NCBI GenBank assembly: GCA_024196135.1
Contig: JAMQCK010000241.1
Span: forward strand, 1-34,557
Origin: Pleurotus ostreatus/Saccharomyces cerevisiae fusant
Taxonomy: Eukaryota; Opisthokonta
DNA: 34,557 nucleotides
Direction: 5' to 3'
A program made the translations under genes and the position numbers. This document shows positions 2,684 to 34,557 of the stretch, piece after piece (the stretch's first letter is position 1; every line of letters begins with the position of its first letter). The notes under the pieces are model-generated. The model was not told the DNA's origin. It saw nothing but the letters and a program-made list of their open reading frames with translations, and did not search any database.

Positions 2684-3468
2684 TTACAGGTTGTACAGAT
2701 CTGCGAACGGGTCGTAGCTCGGGTCGAGCTGGCGCTCGTACTCCATGCTGTTCGCCACATCCGTCGCCGTATCATTCCCATACACGCTCGCAATCCACGC
2801 CAGCGTCATGTCGATGCCCGCACTGATCCCCGACGACGTCCAGACATTCCCGTCCTCGACCCACCGCGCGTGCGCGATCCAGTTCGTGCCGTTCCCCAGC
2901 CCCTCGCGCCCCGCCCACGAGCGCTTGTTCGACGTCGCGTTCCGCCCGTCGAGCACGCCCGCGCGCGCCGCGAGCCACGAGCCCGTGCAGATCGTGAGCA
3001 CGTAGTCGGTCTCCTTAGACGCGTCCGCGATGTAGTCGATCAGCGGGTCGAGGTCGTCCGCGCGCGTGCCGAGGCCGCCGGGGATCATGAGCACGTCGAG
3101 CGCGGGGGCGTCCTGGATGGTATGCGTGGGCGCGATGGCCTCGGAGAAGTTGGAGTTGTGCGTGTTCATGCCGGCGGAGCGCGCTTTGGTGGAGACGGGG
3201 TCGAGCGTGGTGGAGGAGATGAGGTAGAGGTTGAGGGGGTATTGCATGGAGAGGAGGTTGAGCGCGTCGAGGGGCCCGAAGACGTCCAGGGCTTGGAAGG
3301 AGGGGAAGAGCACCATGCCGAAGTTGACGGGAAGGGTGGAGCTGGGGAGGTGTCAATTGATTGGGTCGCCTGGAAGACGGAGGCGACTGACTTGGTGCTG
3401 TTATCCTGCGCGGTCGCGAGCCCTGCGAGGGCGGCGAGCGCAAGTCCCTGAAGCCACTTCATAGACAT
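2684..3468 (-). CDS. Secreted DJ-1/PfpI family protein, copy A
   Basis: Exons 3392-3468 and 2684-3341 (minus) give 244 residues. The start at 3468 (MSMKWLQG) has A at -3 and begins a signal peptide (hydrophobic LALAALAGLATA, cut probably after Ala-20). The mature start is N-glycosylation-rich (DNSTNST). Class I glutamine-amidotransferase-like fold: FPSFQALDVFGPLDAL near residues 38-53, IPGGLGTR at 112-119, and the nucleophile elbow TICTGS with Cys-144. The family includes isonitrile hydratase-like, glyoxalase-like and ThiJ/PfpI proteins; I cannot name the substrate. Secretion is inferred from the leader and sequons. The single intron has phase and position identical to copy B at 16.7 kb. A TATAAA lies about 100 bases upstream of the start. 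Confidence 0.9.
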
Positions 3469-16673: not shown

Positions 16674-17480
16674 ATGCTCACCGACTGGTTCAAGGGGCTT
16701 ACTCTCGCCCTCTTCGCTGGCTTTGCACCTATGGCGGACAACACAACCAGGTCAGCGATGCCACTGACATATGGATCCGAAGTTACTGACATGGGAGCCT
16801 GCAGCTCCCTCCCCGTCAACGTCGGCGTCATACTCTTCCCCGGGTTCCAAGCCCTGGATGTCTTCGGCCCCCTCGACGCCCTCAACATCCTCTCCCGCTC
16901 CTACTCCCTCAACCTCTCCCTCATCTCTAGCCTCCCCACCCTCGACCCCGTCTCCACCCAACCGCCCGCCTCCGTCAACGCCATCACCGGCGCACCCACC
17001 GCCAACTCCAAGTTCTCGCAGTCCCTCGTCCCCACGCACACCATCCACACCCCGCCCCCCACCCTCGACGTCCTCCTCATCCCCGGCGGCCTCGGTACGC
17101 GCGCGCCCGACCTCGAGCCGCTCATCGCCTACATCGCGCGCGCCGCGCAATCAACGAAGTACGTCCTCACCGTATGCACGGGCTCGTGGCTCGCCGCGCG
17201 TGCGGGCGTGCTCGACGGGAAGCGCGCGACGTCGAACAAACGGTCGTGGGCGGGGCGCGAGGGGCTGGGGAATGGGACGGAGTGGGTGGCGCACGCGCGG
17301 TGGGTGCAGGACGGGGATACGTGGACGTCGTCGGGGGTGAGTGCGGGGATTGATATGCTGCTGGCGTGGATGGAGAGCGTGTTTGGGGCGGGGGCGGCGG
17401 AGGAGGTGGCAAATGGGATGGAGTATGAAAGGCACACGGATCCGAGCTGGGATCCTTTCGCCGACCTGTATGGGCTGTAG
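16674..17480 (+). CDS. DJ-1/PfpI family protein, copy B
   Basis: Exons 16674-16750 and 16805-17480 join to 250 residues. The product closely matches copy A (2.7-3.5 kb): FPGFQALDVFGPLDALN, IPGGLGTR at 118-125, nucleophile elbow TVCTGSWLAARAGVLDG with Cys-150, and the same end DPFADLYGL. Exon 1 is 77 bases in both, and the intron has the same phase. The intron (54 bases) has no in-frame stop, so an unspliced reading would add 18 residues. The leader MLTDWFKGLTLALFAGFAPMA is a weaker signal peptide than that of A, with fewer sequons after it. A TATA-like motif almost touching the ATG raises the chance of a shorter, leaderless product from the next Met (MADNTT, 16731). Substrate unknown. Confidence 0.85.
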   Translation: MLTDWFKGLTLALFAGFAPMADNTTRSAMPLTYGSEVTDMGACSSLPVNVGVILFPGFQALDVFGPLDALNILSRSYSLNLSLISSLPTLDPVSTQPPASVNAITGAPTANSKFSQSLVPTHTIHTPPPTLDVLLIPGGLGTRAPDLEPLIAYIARAAQSTKYVLTVCTGSWLAARAGVLDGKRATSNKRSWAGREGLGNGTEWVAHARWVQDGDTWTSSGVSAGIDMLLAWMESVFGAGAAEEVANGMEYERHTDPSWDPFADLYGL

Positions 17481-21424: not shown

Positions 21425-21960
21425 GTCAAGGAGCGGTGCAAACGTGCTACCTATTCCACCTATCGCGCTGCTGTCGAAGCTGAATATATGCAGTGAGCAT
21501 GAGAGGGGTATCCAGGTACCTTATAGCTTGGCTGCACATGGCGAGCGATAGCGATATGTTGACGTCCATGTTGAGAGGGACGAGGGCACATGGTGGAAGA
21601 AGGCAAGACGTCAGCGGAAGCTCTTTTGGGACCGAACAAAGAGATCGCCAAATGGGGACAGTCGATAATAATAGTTGACTTTGGAGGTGCCTCGATCAAG
21701 CCTCAACGGCAGGTCTATCCAGTTACTACGACTCGCATTCAGATTCAAAGCTCGGGAAGAGTACAAATCTAAGCGCGCGATCCATACAATAAAGCTATGC
21801 AAAGATGCGTTGGATTCTACGGTGGAAAATGCAATCACTTGGGTGCCGCTCGAACGTGCGTTCCAAGCCTTCGAACGCAGAGGGAGACACAGTTCGATGG
21901 CTAGCAGTAGAGCTGAAAGCACCCAAGGACCTCGTCAGCTCAGGCTCAACGAAAAAGAAA
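21425..21960. other. Region between the nuclease gene and the structured repeat array
   Basis: 536 bases with the nuclease promoter at the left. The rest is of lower GC than the genes and shows no recognisable coding or RNA feature until the decayed repeat copy at 21961. Confidence 0.4.
21483..21489 (-). promoter_or_regulatory. TATA-like element of the nuclease gene
   Basis: ATATATT on the minus strand about 60 bases upstream of ATG 21424. Confidence 0.4.
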
Positions 21961-22052
21961 GCGCTCTTTGACCCTCCCAAACTCGGGAGGCTCGTCCATA
22001 GACAGCATTGAGGTCTACCGCCGCTGCAAAAGGCCTATCCAATTCTCAAGGG
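21961..22052 (-). ncRNA. Structured element copy h (type II, decayed)
   Basis: Alignable with type II copy c over its whole length: the P4 hairpin (CCTCCC / GGGAGG with a GAGTTT loop) is intact, and gcattgaggtct and ctcaaggg remain. P1' is destroyed (the cccttgg block is replaced by tccatag) and P2 is mutated, so the pseudoknots cannot form. A relic. Confidence 0.55.
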
Positions 22053-22214
22053 AAACTTGAGGTACACGGTCTTGATGCACGTACGTTGACGTCTTGCGCC
22101 CTGCTACCACTCCGATGGCCCGACGAAGTCTTCATGCCCGGCTGCCGTGCCTTGGATTTGCTCGTCGCGTCTTGCTCTTGCCAGGCTTGAAGATGAAAGA
22201 TACGCCGAACGGCA

Positions 22215-22354
22215 CGCCAGTTGGCCTCTTCCACCAAAGGTAGAAGAGTTCACCCTTGGGCCGCGATGAGGCCTGGCGCCGGTCGTGCTTTTGAGCGCGG
22301 CCTACTCCAAGGGAAAGGCCGCGAGGGCCGGCCCCCCCCCCCGTCAGGGAGACC
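22215..22354 (-). ncRNA. HDV-ribozyme-like element copy a (type I)
   Basis: Core 22215-22313, minus strand. P1 CCCUUGG/CCAAGGG, P2 CGCCAG/CUGGCG, P3 GCC/GGC with L3 UCAUCGC, J4/2 GGCCAA. P4 is a 10-pair stem CUCUUCUACC / GGUGGAAGAG with loop UUU, fully different in sequence from P4 of copies e and f. The J1/2 hairpin is partly mispaired. The 5' hairpin (22314-22354) is disrupted by a run of 11 C on the plus strand. Confidence 0.7.
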
Positions 22355-22826
22355 TCATGAAGGAGCAAGGGGGGGTGGTGAGTGTCGACAGAGGGATGCG
22401 ATATGCGGACCGGCGTGATGGAGCAGGTGTCGATGTAGTGAGGAGTGTTCACTAGATGAGAGCAGAGAAAAGCGAGCGGCCTCTGACGGAGTTGAGCAGT
22501 CGGCGACCTATCGCAAGTTCGCAACACACTGGGCGCATGTTGTGTTGATGTTGGCGGGAGCGCGACTCGTTCACCCAAGACATGGGTGTCTGCGTAGGCG
22601 GCACGTAACCTTAGGCGGGTGCCACGAGTCGTGCACGCTCTCAACCTCAGCATGGCGCAACCAATGGCTAGACGGGGAGGTGGCGCGCAGTCGCTTGAAG
22701 CTGACGGGTGCGGTTGGCCGCGACCAAGCTCACTCAATCACACATCACTCTACAGAAGACCATCAACGACGATGAAGCAAAAAGCAGGGTGTCAACATAC
22801 CTCACGCTCACTCCGGCGAGCAAGAA

Positions 22827-22961
22827 CGCCAGTTGGCCCTCGCCCGCAAAGCAGGTGAGGTTCACCCTTGGGCCACGATGAGGCCTGGCGCCGGCACGCG
22901 CCCGAAGGCACGGCCTATTCCAAGGGGGGCTGTTGTGGCCCGGTCTCCCGTTGGGGAGACC
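22827..22961 (-). ncRNA. HDV-ribozyme-like element copy b (type I)
   Basis: Core 22827-22926, minus strand. P1 CCCUUGG/CCAAGGG, P2 CGCCAG/CUGGCG, P3 GCC/GGC, L3 UCAUCGU, J4/2 GGCCAA. P4 CCUCACCUGC / GCGGGCGAGG with loop UUU (nine of ten pairs). The J1/2 hairpin pairs CGUGCC with GGCGCG across a UUCG-like loop. 5' hairpin GGTCTCCC/GGGAGACC kept. A GAG|GTATGT donor-like site follows on the minus strand. Confidence 0.7.
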
Positions 22962-23731
22962 AGAAAGGATTCTCATGGGCTTGAGGTCGGCGAGTTGAGG
23001 CGACTACAGAGATGCGGATGGCGACGAAGGAGAAGAGTAAACAGAGAATGCTCAAGGGGAGGTGGACTCAAGGAGCTTGTGCTTGCTCTGGGAACTGACA
23101 TGAGTTTACGCCGGTTGTTGCACGGCACTAGAAAACGATCAGCGATGACCGGAACAAGTCGAAAACAGCGGAAACTCACGAAAATCTCACGCAACGCATG
23201 TCGTGCTCCATGTGCGTGAATAAGATAACCAAAGGTCGCGGCTCGTCTGTCTTAATAGAAGCTTGACAAAGGGCGAGAGAGCCTTTGAAATCCTGCGAAG
23301 ATCCTTACGAAAGCCGGCAGCGGCGACGACGCAGTGACTCAAATCTTAGCGAGGGCGAAGCTCAACGAGACTCAGGGCGGCATCCGAGTCGTCGCAGCAA
23401 CTCAGACGAAGGGGATGTTGGCGTCGGCGGAAGCACGACCACTGAAGAAGCGGATCAGCGCGAGTCGTAGGGAAGTGAAAGGAGACTGAACATACGAATG
23501 ACTCAGACTATAGTGCATGGGCTCAGGAACTCAATGCACCACGCATCGCCTGTCTCATGCGCGCGAACGAAAGCAGCTCAACCAGGAAGTTTCGGGAGCG
23601 TTTGACGGCGACCTCATGCTCATGCTCACGCCGAAACACGGATACAGCCCTGTGGAAGATTGTCAGCAATGAACATAGCAGGAAGAGCGAAGGAAAATCG
23701 TACCTCACACAAACAATAATGAGTCGGAAAA

Positions 23732-23820
23732 CGCCAGTTGGCCCTCCCAAACTCGGGAGGTTCACCCTTGGACCGCGATGAGGTCTGGCGCCGGTGTACA
23801 AAGTACACCTATCCCAAGGG
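23732..23820 (-). ncRNA. HDV-ribozyme-like element copy c (type II)
   Basis: The most compact copy. Minus strand: P1 CCCUUGG/CCAAGGG, J1/2 hairpin GGUGUAC UUU GUACACC (perfect), P2 CGCCAG/CUGGCG, P3 ACC/GGU (compensatory to GCC/GGC of type I), L3 UCAUCGC, P4 CCUCCC/GGGAGG, J4/2 GGCCAA. It lacks the type I 5' hairpins; a 51-52-base tandem repeat lies just upstream instead. Confidence 0.75.
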
Positions 23821-23975
23821 GGTCTTGAGGCACACCCGTTGAGTCTTGCGTCTTGCTCTCACTCCCCGATAGGTCTTGAGGCACGCGTCTTGAGGTCTTG
23901 AATCTTGCTCTCACTCCCCGGTCGGACTTGAGGACGTTGAAGTCTTGCTCCTTGCTCTCACCCACTTTGCCCGAC
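23821..23975. repeat. 51-52-base tandem repeat in the array spacer
   Basis: Units begin at 23821, 23872 and 23924 with gg(t/a)cttgagg and contain tcttgctctcactcccc (23851, 23903; a shorter form near 23950). About two and a half units. Diverged traces of the same cttgagg/tcttg words occur at 22050-22130 and 26050-26100, always beside type II copies. Confidence 0.7.
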
Positions 23976-24001
23976 GGAGTCTTCCTACGCACCGTCAGGC
24001 A

Positions 24002-24135
24002 CGCCAGTTGGCCTCTCCCACAAGGCGGGAGAGTTCACCCTTGGGCCGCGTTGAGGCCTGGCGCCGGTCGTGCTTTTGCGGCAGACCTATTCCAAGGGAA
24101 AGCCCGCAAGGGCCGGTCTCCCCGTTCGGGAGACC
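24002..24135 (-). ncRNA. HDV-ribozyme-like element copy d (type I)
   Basis: Core 24002-24098, minus strand. P1 CCCUUGG/CCAAGGG, P2 CGCCAG/CUGGCG, P3 GCC/GGC, L3 UCAACGC, P4 CUCUCCC/GGGAGAG, J4/2 GGCCAA. 5' hairpins GCCC/GGGC and GGTCTCCC/GGGGAGACC are intact. A pyrimidine tract ending CTCTAG precedes the element, like a 3' splice site. Confidence 0.75.
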
Positions 24136-24605
24136 TAGAGAAGGAGGAAGGTGGTGATGATAGTGATGGACATGCAAGCAGGGCGAGAGGGTATGACAAA
24201 GGAACGGGGATCGAGCACGGAAAAGCAAGCAATCTCTGACGGAGATAAGACGTCCACAACGTCCCGCAGCTGATCACACCAAGTATATGCTCATGTCGGC
24301 GGAGATGCTCGACACTGTGAAGATGGGTAAGCTGGGCACGATGACGAGGAGATCGGAGGGACGTACATTCAACTCAGACGATGGAGAACCTGCTACGCGA
24401 TGCACACGCTGCTACGCTCAGACCAAAGCGTCGGATGCAGAAACTCAGCGGTACGCAGCGCGCGTCAGCCATGCCGAACCGACTGTTGCGGTCGGCCGCG
24501 AGCAAACTCACTCAGTCACGCATCACACTGCGAGGGACTATAAGCATCGATGAAGTAAAAGTCAAGAAATAAAGCGTACCTCACACTCACTCCAGCGAGT
24601 GAGAA

Positions 24606-24740
24606 CGCCAGTTGGCCCTCTCGACAAAGCCGAGAGGTTCACCCTTGGGCCACGATGAGGCCTGGCGCCGGTCGCGCTCGGAAGCGCAACCTATTCCAAG
24701 GGAAAGGCCTCGAGGGCCAGGTCCCCCCGTTAGGGAGACC
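24606..24740 (-). ncRNA. HDV-ribozyme-like element copy e (type I)
   Basis: Core 24606-24702, minus strand. P1 CCCUUGG/CCAAGGG, J1/2 hairpin GGUUGCGC/GCGCGACC, P2 CGCCAG/CUGGCG, P3 GCC/GGC, L3 UCAUCGU, P4 CCUCUCGGC/GUCGAGAGG with loop UUU, J4/2 GGCCAA. CCCTAG precedes and GTGTGAG|GTACGC follows on the minus strand, so the module is framed like an exon. Confidence 0.75.
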
Positions 24741-25297
24741 TAGGGAAGAAGTAGGTTATGACGGTGGTGGAAGGGATCCGGAGAGCATAGGCGATGCGGA
24801 CGGTATGACGAGACTGCAAACGATAGGCGCGCGGACGGTAGTGCAGGAGGAACATCGAGTAGATGTGGAAGCGACTCCGACGAAGATGGCGTGCTGACAA
24901 CTCATGAGAGGAGAGGAGGAATCGCAACTATCACGCGGCGAGCAAGCTGATGTCGGCGGGAGCGCGACGCTGGGGACTAATCAGCTCAAGGCGACGGCAC
25001 AAGGTAGAAATGGCACGCACGTTCAACTTAAGACATAAATATAGGGATCGATGCAGATGGCGTGCAGCCTCAAGCGGATGCTCCAAGTCGCGCGCGCTCT
25101 TAAGCTCAGCATGACACATCGAGCGAAGAGAGTGCGATAAACACGCAGCACGCGTTCGCCATGCTGAACCGACTGTTGCGTTCGGCTAGGTCTCAAAGCT
25201 CAATCAATCACGCATCACACTGCGAGGGAGGATCAGCATCGATGAAGTGAAAGCCAAGAGTTAAAGCGTACCTCACGCTCACTCCTGCAAGCGAGAA

Positions 25298-25433
25298 CGC
25301 CAGTTGGCCCTCACTTGCAAAGCAAGTGAGGTTCACCCTCGGGCCACGGTGAGGCCTGGCGCCGGTCACGCTTTTGAACGCGACCTATTCCGAGGGAAGG
25401 CCCGTAAGGCCCGGTCTCCCCGCGAGGGAGACC
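25298..25433 (-). ncRNA. HDV-ribozyme-like element copy f (type I)
   Basis: Core 25298-25396, minus strand. P1 here is CCCUCGG/CCGAGGG: the U-A pair of the other copies is replaced by C-G on both sides, direct support for this pseudoknot helix. J1/2 hairpin GGUCGCG/CGUGACC, P2 CGCCAG/CUGGCG, P3 GCC/GGC, L3 UCACCGU, P4 a perfect ten-pair CCUCACUUGC/GCAAGUGAGG. One base is missing upstream of P1 relative to copy e, breaking any shared reading frame. Confidence 0.8.
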
Positions 25434-25951
25434 TAGAGAAAGGAAATGACGGTGGTAAAAGCGGAGGCGAGAGACGCAAGTGATGGTTGGACTCTGACTG
25501 GTGGGGACAGAGGGGCGGTGAAGGGAGGAGAAAGTGCGAGCCAGGATGTCGAGAGGGAGCGATGGTAGCGGGTATGCAATGTCGACGACTCAGAGGGCAG
25601 CAAGACCATCACGATTAATCACACGACGAACGCGTTGACGTCGGCGGAGGTGCACGACACTGTGAAGACTGGTCAGAGGGTGCCAGAAGACGAGAAGAGT
25701 GGAGGGAACGCACGTTCACCTCAGACGATGGCCAACCTCCTTCGCGATGCACACGCTCTTATGCTCAGACCAAGGCGCCCGATGCAGAAACTCAGAGAGA
25801 CGCAGCACGCGTCCGCCATGCGAAACCGACTGTTGGGGTCGGCCGCGCTCCAAGCTCACTCACTCACACATCACTCTACAAAAGACGATCAGCCACGTTG
25901 AAGTACGAATAGGGAAAGAAGACATACCTCACACTCACTCCCGCGCTCGAA

Positions 25952-26052
25952 CGCCAGTTGGCCCTCTCGACAAAGCCGAGAGGTTCACCCTTGGACCACG
26001 TTGAGGTCTGGCGCCGGTGTACCGCCCGCCGGCGGCACACCTATCCCAAGGG
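25952..26052 (-). ncRNA. HDV-ribozyme-like element copy g (type II)
   Basis: Minus strand: P1 CCCUUGG/CCAAGGG, long J1/2 hairpin GGUGUGCCGCC/GGCGGUACACC, P2 CGCCAG/CUGGCG, P3 ACC/GGU, L3 UCAACGU, P4 CCUCUCGGC/GUCGAGAGG, J4/2 GGCCAA. First copy of the array in minus-strand order. Followed by a GAG|GTATGT donor-like site. Confidence 0.75.
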
Positions 26053-27468
26053 GGTCTTGAGGCGCGCGCGTTGAGTCTCGCTCCTTGTTCTCACTCCGTT
26101 CAGTCGGTGGGCGGCGCAGAAGGTCTTCACTGCGCGCGTTGAGGTGTTGAGGTATTGGAGGTTGACATTGCGAGTGGTGTCGGGTCGTCTTGAGGTTGAA
26201 AGGGGCCTAGAGGCCGTGCTTGTGTCTTGAGGAAGAGGAAAGTCGAACGTGGCAAACATTGGGCCTTTCCCACGAGGTAGGAAAGTGTCCCGGTCGAAGC
26301 AGGTCTCGAGGGTAGCGATGGGTAGCTTGAGGTCGTGGATAGGTACTTGAGGGTATTGACGAAGATGCTTGACAATCTTCACGTCGGCGAGTAACGATAA
26401 TATGAAAGGGTGCGATCGGTCTTGACGCGCTTCAGTTCGGGGATCGAGTGACTTTGACGAGCTGCAGACGGAGTGAGCAAGTGGACAGTAGCAATTGCAT
26501 TGCCACGCACCTCAGTGGCCATAATTATCATCCTGGTACCCATCGGAGACGCTCTTGAGCGATCGGAGAGCGCGGCGCTAATCCGCCACAAAGTGGCGAA
26601 AGCGAAAGAAACCGGCGACGAGAAGCGCGTTGAGTCGCATAAGCTCAAGGCATGTACGTAGCGTATTGTAGAAGACACAATGGGGGACAGAATGGGGGTC
26701 GCAAAGAGCGGTGACGACCGAACGACGACGACGAGCGATGTGTGGCGCGGTGGGCACCGCGACGATCGCAAGCCGCCGGTGTACAGAGGAGCGCAGAGAG
26801 AAAGACAGAACAAGAATAGAAGGGAGAACGCGCCTTTCGACGCGCTCGCAACTTGGGGTACATGGGGGGAAAAGGGAAAGAAGGGAACTGGGGGAAACGA
26901 CGCGAAGACCCTGCCCTTATGTACCCGCCCTCGGCCCGATCACCGTGATCACATGACCTACACGAGGCGACACAAACGCAAGGCCCTTGAAAGGACAAAC
27001 AATTCGCAAACAAACACGTTGGGCACGAGGCGTGCGCTGGCGACTGCGCGGAAAGGCCGCCGAGTGGCATGATTCACGGAAACAACCCTCGACGGTCAAC
27101 GAGCGGAACCATCTGCGGCATGCCACGCGGCGAGATTTGCTTCCGCGACGGAGCTATTCTGAATTGCATCAAAAGAGGTCAAAGGTGGTCAAAGGCTCTT
27201 AAGGACTATCAAAGGCCATTGAGGTGGCGCGTTCGAGGCACTAACGGATAGCGGTAGACGCTGGTTTTCTCGCCTCGCTCAGTCATCAAGCTTTCAAGAT
27301 CAACACTGGCCCGCCTGGCATCGCAAGGTCGAGCTTCATTGACCGACTGCATGTGTGGAAAAATAAGATAATGCATCGAGGAGCAACAAGTACGCTAAGG
27401 GCTACATGAAGGTCCTACACCCAATAGCAATCGAATCCATGCACAATGAAAGCAGTACAGGTCCGCAC
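26053..27468. other. Gene-poor region right of the array
   Basis: About 1.4 kb with no convincing gene. 26053-26400 still has cttgagg-type words related to the array spacer. On the minus strand near 26510-26460 there is an intron-like pair, GAG|GTGCGTGG to CTGCAG. A purine-rich tract lies at about 26863-26895. Long open frames exist on both strands but show no family resemblance. Confidence 0.4.
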
Positions 27469-33892: not shown

Positions 33893-34330
33893 CTAGTCGT
33901 CCCAGTGCTTGTACGCCGTTCCCGGCGCAACGCAACCGAACCCAGACCCAATCAGTTCCACCAGATCGTGAAGATCGTCATCCGAGTATTCGTATCTCCG
34001 ATACAGTCCAGTCCGGGGCCGGAATCCATCATCCGAGCCCCAGTGGTCCGGGTCATCCGAGTCGTCAGAAGGATCTGAAGGATCTGACGGGTCTGTGGGG
34101 ACCTCAGGCTTCGAAGGGCCAGCTTCGGCCTCGCGCCTCCTCACATCCTCCTGCAGACGTTTGCGAGCCGCCTTGAGCTGTCCGGGGGTTATCAGGGTGG
34201 CGGGACTCGCGCTCTTCAGGCCGGTCTGCTTGAAGATGGGGATGGTGGGGATGTCGACCGAGGTCTGGTATACGAGTGCGATGTGGAATTCGGGTTTTCG
34301 GCGATCGCCGCACGCGCACGTGACCAGCGC
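33893..34330 (-). pseudogene. Small unknown protein, family member 3, without a start codon
   Basis: Open frame of 145 codons on the minus strand from just after an in-frame TAA (34331-34333) to the stop at 33893. It contains FHIALVYQTSVDIPTIPIF and ITPGQLKAARKRLQEDVRR, colinear with members 1 and 2, then an acidic Pro-Ser-Asp repeat and an end resembling member 1 (YSDDDLHDLVEL, AYKHWDD). There is no ATG in frame. A TATATAAG sits at 34331-34338 directly upstream, so the usual leader (MxxNxxK...) seems deleted between promoter and core. I looked for an upstream exon in the remaining 220 bases and found none that keeps the frame. Either a 5'-truncated pseudogene or a gene with an unusual start. 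Confidence 0.5.
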
Positions 34331-34338
34331 TTATATAC

Positions 34339-34557
34339 CGCGTTTTTGTAGATTTTTACCTTATCCGTTTATCCTCGTACCACCATACAGGACAACCGGA
34401 ACACACTCTATTCTTGCTGGACTCGAGGCAACAGACGACTACAACAACACAAACGGATCCTAGCCAGTCCAGCCGGCTAGTAAAACATAGGGCTGAAGAA
34501 GGCCGCGCTCACTCCGCGATGTGAGCCGCCTTGTCGTCATCACGAGTCCCCGACCGC
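34339..34557. other. Right edge of window
   Basis: About 220 bases beyond the TATA-like motif of family member 3. No gene seen within the window; a gene could start beyond the edge. Confidence 0.3.

Follow-up and report, generated by a model that had tools for sequence, protein, structure and literature searches.

Predicted hepatitis delta virus-type ribozymes bracket noncoding bodies with intron signals in a fungal array

The DNA analyzed here, called the window below, is the whole of contig JAMQCK010000241.1 (34,557 nucleotides, nt) in the assembly of a Pleurotus ostreatus/Saccharomyces cerevisiae fusant (GCA_024196135.1). Its minus strand carries an array of seven complete folds of the hepatitis delta virus (HDV) ribozyme type between positions 22214 and 26052, and a decayed eighth copy at 21960–22052. 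Each of the seven has, in order, P1 (7 bp), a J1/2 hairpin, P2 (7–8 bp), P3 (3 bp), a 7-nt L3 loop, P3', P1', P4, J4/2, and P2', with P2-P3-L3-P3'-P1' contiguous; L3 reads UCANCGY and J4/2 reads GGCCAA in all seven. An earlier note, made from the letters alone, had described seven minus-strand copies with this helix order and contiguity and with these two motifs, and descriptor scans found them all. That note had missed the eighth, decayed copy, the leader, the introns, and a promoter-like box, and its unit of about 0.6–0.7 kb did not hold: the start-to-start distances of the seven are 656, 694, 604, 278, 894, and 613, so the spacing runs from 278 to 894 with no regular unit.

A loose HDV-type descriptor matched the minus strand of the window eight times (the seven copies and a chance match at 22745–22840) and the plus strand twice, both by chance. 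A strict descriptor, with the helix sequences left free, gave seven minus-strand matches and none on the plus strand. The same strict descriptor found nothing in 300 shuffled strands or in six array-free pieces of the same genome (68.4 kb, both strands), and four matches in a larger control of 2,500 shuffled strands (86.4 Mb). When the descriptor had A, G, or U in place of the catalytic C, neither strand of the window gave a match, against seven matches with C. Since the seven copies are mutually related, they count as one strongly unlikely event plus conservation.

The searched assembly comprised 40.05 Mb in 1,277 contigs, in which the window is contig C438, and all copy counts are lower bounds. 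Pattern, DNA, and covariance-model searches revealed at least 36 complete and at least nine decayed copies. The pattern and DNA searches placed ribozymes on C373, C438, C556, C630, C638, C648, C818, C963, and C964; C746 and C43 have one decayed copy each, a lone ribozyme that lacks five of the seven L3 bases and has no body downstream. Over 12 loci, model R2 returned 44 copies, 36 complete and eight decayed, and C43 supplies the ninth decayed one. The descriptor scan gave 43 rows, from which 36 were kept as complete copies; seven low-scoring rows were left out (two each in L043 and the window, one each in L045, L048, and L049), and of the L045 copy only the part up to the nearer P1 was kept. 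Decay takes several forms: L042:3955 lacks GGCCAA, five bases of L3 are gone from L046:4981 and L083, and L042:2473 and L047:5461 combine GGCTAG with a broken P2. Of the nine decayed copies, six retain the catalytic C and fail in other parts.

The 36 complete copies (alignment A1) were picked by a scan that required P3, UNNNCGY in L3, a C and one A in J4/2, and contiguity of P2 and P3, and that tolerated a single mismatch at most in P1 and likewise in P2; neither P4 nor the J1/2 hairpin was scored. P3, UNNNCGY, the J4/2 C and A, and a near-perfect P1 and P2 were thus favored by the selection itself. Standard pairs fill 98.1% of the cells of A1, and 11 pairs show two-sided change, in 91 cells. 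None of 500 shuffles matched any of five measures, and slid registers were at most 52.3% paired. The covarying pairs lie in P4 (6 of 7), P3 (2 of 3), and the J1/2 hairpin (2 of 4); the first seven pairs of P4 are unbroken, with 96.8% of their cells standard. When the eight decayed copies were added (alignment A2, fitted to model R2 with P2 and P1.1 left out), 96.2% of the cells were paired and 13 pairs changed on both sides, in 112 cells, again unmatched in 500 shuffles. Parsimony on trees of such short ribozymes (about 43 coincident double changes) is not relied upon; its P3 part may be one event. With a near-constant G-U pair of P2 excluded, G-U cells outnumber A-C cells by 31 to 6, which fits a minus-strand RNA.

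Across the 36, L3 is UCANCGY in every copy and J4/2 is GGCCAA in 35, the remaining copy having GGCTAA, and searches that did not require these L3 and J4/2 bases found no complete-looking copy without them. The catalytic C of J4/2, required by the scan, is present in all 36. The first base of P1 is C in 35 of the A1 rows; the row for L045 starts one base short, and its C was seen separately. The nested double-pseudoknot order of P1 to P4 by which the HDV class is recognized was found in 36 of 36, for P2 by complementarity only. HDV-class ribozymes also have an L3 of the form UNNNCGY, as the earlier note gives it, which all 36 copies share, and form P1.1 between L3 and J1.1/4. The corresponding bases here, CA in L3 and UG in J1.1/4, were not demanded by the scan and occur in all 36; as P1.1 is invariant, it draws no support from covariation. 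The earlier note had proposed an HDV-type fold and had named poor covariation and an equal or better plus-strand structure as grounds for giving it up. Covariation, also with the decayed copies, the strand asymmetry, and the negative controls all favor the minus-strand fold, and on this comparison the array elements are very probably HDV-type ribozymes. A CUUUG loop is repeated in the P4 hairpins of many copies and in the leader hairpin at 26574–26597; the recurrence may reflect a common binding site or just a stable loop.

The flanks, read around every copy, fall into three classes. Type A ribozymes have a leader or a CAAGAC-rich linker upstream and an intron-bearing body downstream; type B have two hairpins, H1 and H2, upstream and an intron-bearing body downstream; type C have the same two hairpins upstream and, downstream, a linker. 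Ten of the 36 are A, ten are B, and twelve are C. Their order in the window is A-B-B-C followed by A-B-C and the decayed copy, giving sets of three and two bodies, every body closed by a ribozyme at either end. C963 and C964 show A-B-C and A-C. C630 has A-B-C and a second unit that begins with a broken A and goes on with B and C. Much the same layout is found at other loci. Plain satellite DNA was rejected, as the spacing is irregular and the leader, box, and introns are common to several loci; the earlier note's "satellite-like repeat" gives way to units, found again elsewhere in the genome, in which A, B, and C copies follow in order and which also have intron signals, a TATA-like box, and a leader that is conserved.

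For the bodies, 21 units were within the length limits, of which all but the four longest were aligned. Among these 17, one follows the decayed L042:3955, and the body next to C373/C648 is over the limit. Signals of a first intron (GTRNGN, a CTGAT-like branch site, and YAG; 50–63 nt, about 52) follow the ribozyme in 17 of 17 units, with the scripted end one base early in L041_2357, and those of a second intron (48–54 nt) occur in 15 of 17. In columns chosen by us, mean conservation at the splice sites is 0.85 and 0.94 for intron 1, versus 0.73 in its interior, and 0.93 and 0.91 for intron 2, versus 0.63. Intron 2 is missing almost to the base from the homologous bodies that follow 22825–22926 and L041:3844–3945, a clean absence that looks like true intron loss. 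The H1/H2 fold is predicted in 17 of 17 units. A pyrimidine-rich tract before H1 was considered as a 3' splice site and rejected, the AG before H1 not being conserved. A coding role was also rejected: after in silico splicing, the longest open reading frames (ORFs) starting with ATG have 18–123 amino acids and look unrelated, and internal gap runs are mostly not multiples of three (10, 26, and 17 with remainders of 0, 1, and 2). UGAG/UGA repeats stand on either side of intron 1 in most bodies, for example GAGUGAGCGUGAG, the intron, then AGUGAUGCGUGAUUGAGUGAGC, so that several UGA triplets surround the junction. Before ribozyme 7, a run of 11 G (22332–22342, minus strand) enlarges H1 and is either a sequencing error or a true variant.

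Upstream of the first ribozyme, at about 0.9 kb, is a TATA-like box, followed by a hairpin and then by a predicted intron (Table 1). By eye, C373 and C638 have the same box-hairpin-intron order with small changes. About 80 bases around the box also match the leader promoter at C297:7062–7138 and C657:14417–14501, where the pieces examined hold no ribozyme. C54 and C56 gave weak matches to the leader pattern and were rejected as loci, with no ribozyme in the stretches examined. Among the matches listed, C503 and C725 have the 12-base string GGCCAACTGGCG and no ribozyme in the pieces examined.

Table 1. Positions in the window of the predicted ribozymes, introns, hairpins, and leader elements
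Feature	Position	Strand	Details
TATA-like box GTACATAAGG	26915–26924	-	aligned with TATATAAGG (C630, one unit) and TACAAAAGG (C963, C964, other unit of C630, C818)
Leader hairpin GCCACTTTGTGGC then GGATTAGCGCC	26574–26597	-	hairpin identical in 7 of 8 aligned leaders, altered in C746
Leader intron	26462–26510	-	49 nt, GTGCGT...CTGCAG; signals complete in 7 of 8 leaders, C746 without 3' AG
HDV-like ribozyme 1	25950–26052	-	type A: leader/linker before, body after; 106.6 bits
Intron 1, body 1	25876–25927	-	52 nt; signals GTATGT, CTGAT, TAG
Intron 2, body 1	25660–25713	-	54 nt; signals
H1+H2 just 5' of predicted ribozyme 2 cleavage site	25397–25433	-	fold
HDV-like ribozyme 2	25296–25396	-	type B; 103.8 bits
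Intron 1, body 2	25220–25271	-	52 nt; signals
Intron 2, body 2	24970–25020	-	51 nt; signals
H1+H2 before ribozyme 3	24703–24740	-	fold
HDV-like ribozyme 3	24604–24702	-	type B; 107.8 bits
Intron 1, body 3	24528–24579	-	52 nt; signals
Intron 2, body 3	24315–24366	-	52 nt; signals
H1+H2 before ribozyme 4	24099–24135	-	fold
HDV-like ribozyme 4	24001–24098	-	type C: body before, linker after; 110.3 bits
Linker rich in CAAGAC	23821–24000	-	tandem repeat of about 52 nt inside, at 23821–23933
HDV-like ribozyme 5	23730–23820	-	type A; 97.0 bits
Intron 1, long body 4	23650–23703	-	54 nt; by eye; body outside 17-unit alignment
H1+H2 before ribozyme 6	22927–22961	-	by eye only
HDV-like ribozyme 6	22825–22926	-	type B; 98.6 bits
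Intron 1, body 5	22750–22800	-	51 nt; intron 2 absent from body 5
H1+H2 before ribozyme 7	22314–22354	-	fold
HDV-like ribozyme 7	22214–22313	-	type C; 94.2 bits
Decayed eighth ribozyme	21960–22052	-	25.8 bits, alignment

Three pairs of homologous contigs were taken as two haplotypes each, the alternative being an old duplication. Pooled identity of the ribozymes is 94.0% for C438/C556, 93.4% for C963/C964, and 98.0% for C373/C648, and that of the bodies is 82.1%, 88.0%, and 88.5%, respectively. The 45 bases upstream of the ribozymes are 91.0% identical in the first pair and 94.7% in the second. C438/C556 and C963/C964 also agree in ribozyme number and order. Sequence comparison thus gives the fold, its strand, its conservation, the intron signals, the bracketing order in the window, and the recurrence at other loci.

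The unit looks like a noncoding transcription unit of the RNA polymerase II (Pol II) type, with a TATA-like box, a leader, and ribozyme-bracketed bodies. From its layout we infer transcription, cleavage, splicing, and stability of the products, and we consider it probable that the ribozymes release the bracketed, spliced RNAs. According to this model, the minus strand from about 26.9 to 21.9 kb would be transcribed as one noncoding Pol II-type unit, in the order A-body-B-body-B-body-C, linker, A-body-B-body-C. Each ribozyme would cleave immediately 5' of its own P1 and so free RNAs of about 0.6–0.9 kb that begin at the 5' end with a ribozyme fold and close at the 3' end with two stable hairpins, in most cases with two or three U after them. 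From each released RNA, splicing would remove one or two small introns. The decay of the lone ribozyme on C746 and C43, where the body is missing, speaks for this model. More tentatively, the arrays may form a polycistron-like noncoding gene family in which successive spliced RNAs are freed from one Pol II transcript by HDV-like ribozymes rather than by protein nucleases, with n bodies, n+1 ribozymes, and ends protected by structure.

Several observations weigh against this model or the fold beneath it. P2, one of the two pseudoknot helices, shows no two-sided change on the 36 copies, and P1 has one covarying pair, a single event confined to C438 and the homologous C556. At the first P3 pair, A-U occurs in the ten type A copies and in no others, so this may also be one event. 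The four C373/C648 copies are a poor fit to the A-B-C scheme, and identity in that pair is just 76.7% in the 45-base stretch upstream of the ribozymes. One leading A copy, at L042:3955–4050, has lost its J4/2, although the copies after it are intact, and on C638 the leader is followed at once by one C-type ribozyme and a decayed copy, which bracket no body. The ribozyme at 23730–23820 is 77.8% identical to its partner, hardly above the 76.2% of their bodies, and in one C963/C964 unit the body (95.3%) exceeds the ribozyme (94.5%). The homology of C556 breaks off before the TATA-like box is reached, and no such box was noted on that contig. No ORF is conserved in the 17 bodies, and the six of them that were folded show no unusual structure (z from −2.0 to +0.5 with the hairpins); together these give no sign of what a released RNA would do. 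Viroid-like, self-complementary bodies were not seen in these six of the 17 units.

The units could instead be a retrozyme-like, non-autonomous mobile element, whose monomers would be cut by the ribozymes, ligated into circles, copied back into DNA by another element, and inserted anew, leaving both arrays and scattered loci. The tandem order of the units, their ribozymes, and their retrozyme-like size would suit such an element, as would the dispersal of the loci, whose flanks (pieces of 7–10 kb) are little alike beyond the units except on homologous contigs; the one clean intron loss would be expected if a spliced RNA had been reverse-transcribed. We nevertheless regard it as unlikely. A promoter-like box, a leader, and introns accompany the units at several loci, and the equal ribozyme number and order on C438/C556 and C963/C964 mean that there has been no recent movement there. 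One body used as a query matched the array contigs and a 35-nt patch on C1088 only, another matched C438 and C556 only, and the six bodies folded show no unusual self-pairing.

An improbable reading is that the ribozymes serve turnover or termination, by self-destruction of a readthrough or regulatory transcript, with the bodies as spacers. It would account for pooled bodies that are more diverged than the ribozymes, and for six bodies without special structure and no conserved ORF; seven copies are hardly needed for a destruction signal, however, and the bracketing order, the H1/H2 hairpins at the body-side cleavage sites, and the kept intron signals argue that the bodies matter. A reading with no ribozyme function, as a conserved DNA repeat or a fold due to chance, which would fit the lack of an Rfam HDV match in the window and the invariance of P2 and most of P1 (hence little or no covariation support there), is very improbable in view of the covariation in P3, P4, and the J1/2 hairpin, the G-U bias on one strand, the conserved L3 and J4/2, a chance rate of four per 86 Mb, and the absence of the rest of the fold from 24 of 24 core matches elsewhere.

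These elsewhere matches came from other collections, in which no plasmid was matched and no virus matched the long core pattern. Looser core patterns gave 16 GTDB and eight viral matches, rejected as relatives since none has both P1 and P2'; their best model score is 16.9 bits, and the eight of 24 loci scanned with Rfam gave no match. At threshold, no HDV-type Rfam family matched the window, the array, a single ribozyme, or L049, and no family of any kind, hammerhead included, matched the window. RF02682 over the same genome gave two matches below its cut-off, neither in an array (61 of 4,614 candidates scored).

HDV-like ribozymes have been placed in subviral transcripts, non-LTR (long terminal repeat) retrotransposons, and the CPEB3 gene (PMC4908430, in the part available). 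Fungi are known to have an HDV variant: the accessible part of PMC5640933 reports 230 examples from 26 species, with cleavage shown for constructs from Penicillium chrysogenum and Aspergillus niger. Ours share with that variant, as described there, a C-G first pair of P1 and a fungal host. They differ in that the variant has an extra base between P2 and P3, whereas P2 and P3 abut in all 36 copies here (contiguity being required by the scan). That variant also has a loop E in P4; the P4 pairs are unbroken here, and no search aimed at loop E was made. The words "tandem" and "basidiomycete" are absent from its main text, and its supplementary species table may include Schizophyllum commune. Of the earlier note's remark that no such array was described in a basidiomycete, the array part stands: HDV-like ribozymes are known in fungi (PMC5640933, in part), and we found no report of arrays of them in fungi among the matches listed, in a search with most of the subscription literature outside it.

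The mosquito ribozyme drz-Agam-2-1 is also a nested double pseudoknot, and its P1.2 in J1/2, the position of the J1/2 hairpin here, speeds cleavage (PMC4908430, available part). The ribozymes of that source generally have a purine-pyrimidine first pair, unlike the C-G pair here, and the present copies lie in noncoding arrays with predicted introns. Retrozymes, from what is accessible of PMC7761336, resemble the arrays as tandem noncoding units with self-cleaving ribozymes and possible circular products. Theirs are hammerhead ribozymes, whereas the type here is HDV, accompanied by intron signals, a promoter-like box, and a leader; plant retrozymes have LTRs, a primer-binding site, and a polypurine tract (same source). 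The theta ribozymes of gut phages are likewise HDV-like and tied to noncoding RNA genes, in their case phage tRNAs, but they are of a minimal type without P4 (PMC10879173, part available).

If the ribozymes cut, the arrays would be a clear non-viral, non-retroelement case of ribozymes organizing the processing of a eukaryotic transcript, with a testable role for dozens of HDV-like ribozymes in one genome. Were the whole model true, self-cleavage and spliceosomal splicing would meet within a single RNA. The copies are in addition a set of HDV-type folds missed by the Rfam models.

Among the surrounding genes in the window, one of the DJ-1 type matches proteins of Schizophyllum commune at 91% and 84% identity (best 120 of 4,744 matches). 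This one neighboring gene points to S. commune, a mushroom used in the laboratory, or a close relative as the source, in line with the basidiomycete setting assumed in the earlier note. The window also holds an inverted duplication (2694–3336 and 16807–17470, 77% identical) that overlaps the DJ-1/PfpI gene. Beyond the array, at about 31.8–33.0 kb on the plus strand, there are fragments of a cytochrome P450 gene, and similar sequence lies near the C818 array. On C1088, a 35-nt patch (L082, C1088:12996–13030) matches the hairpin block in exon 2 of the body at 97% identity; C1088 was rejected as an array locus, with no ribozyme in the 1.7 kb examined and no further similarity to the array. A 770-base contig in ENA has one protein that, over 102 residues, is 71% identical to the frame running through ribozyme 7, so that a further similar copy exists elsewhere. 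The end of the window (34304–34557) is 100% identical to L042:1–254, the start of C630, which has two more ribozyme units, and the two contigs therefore probably adjoin.

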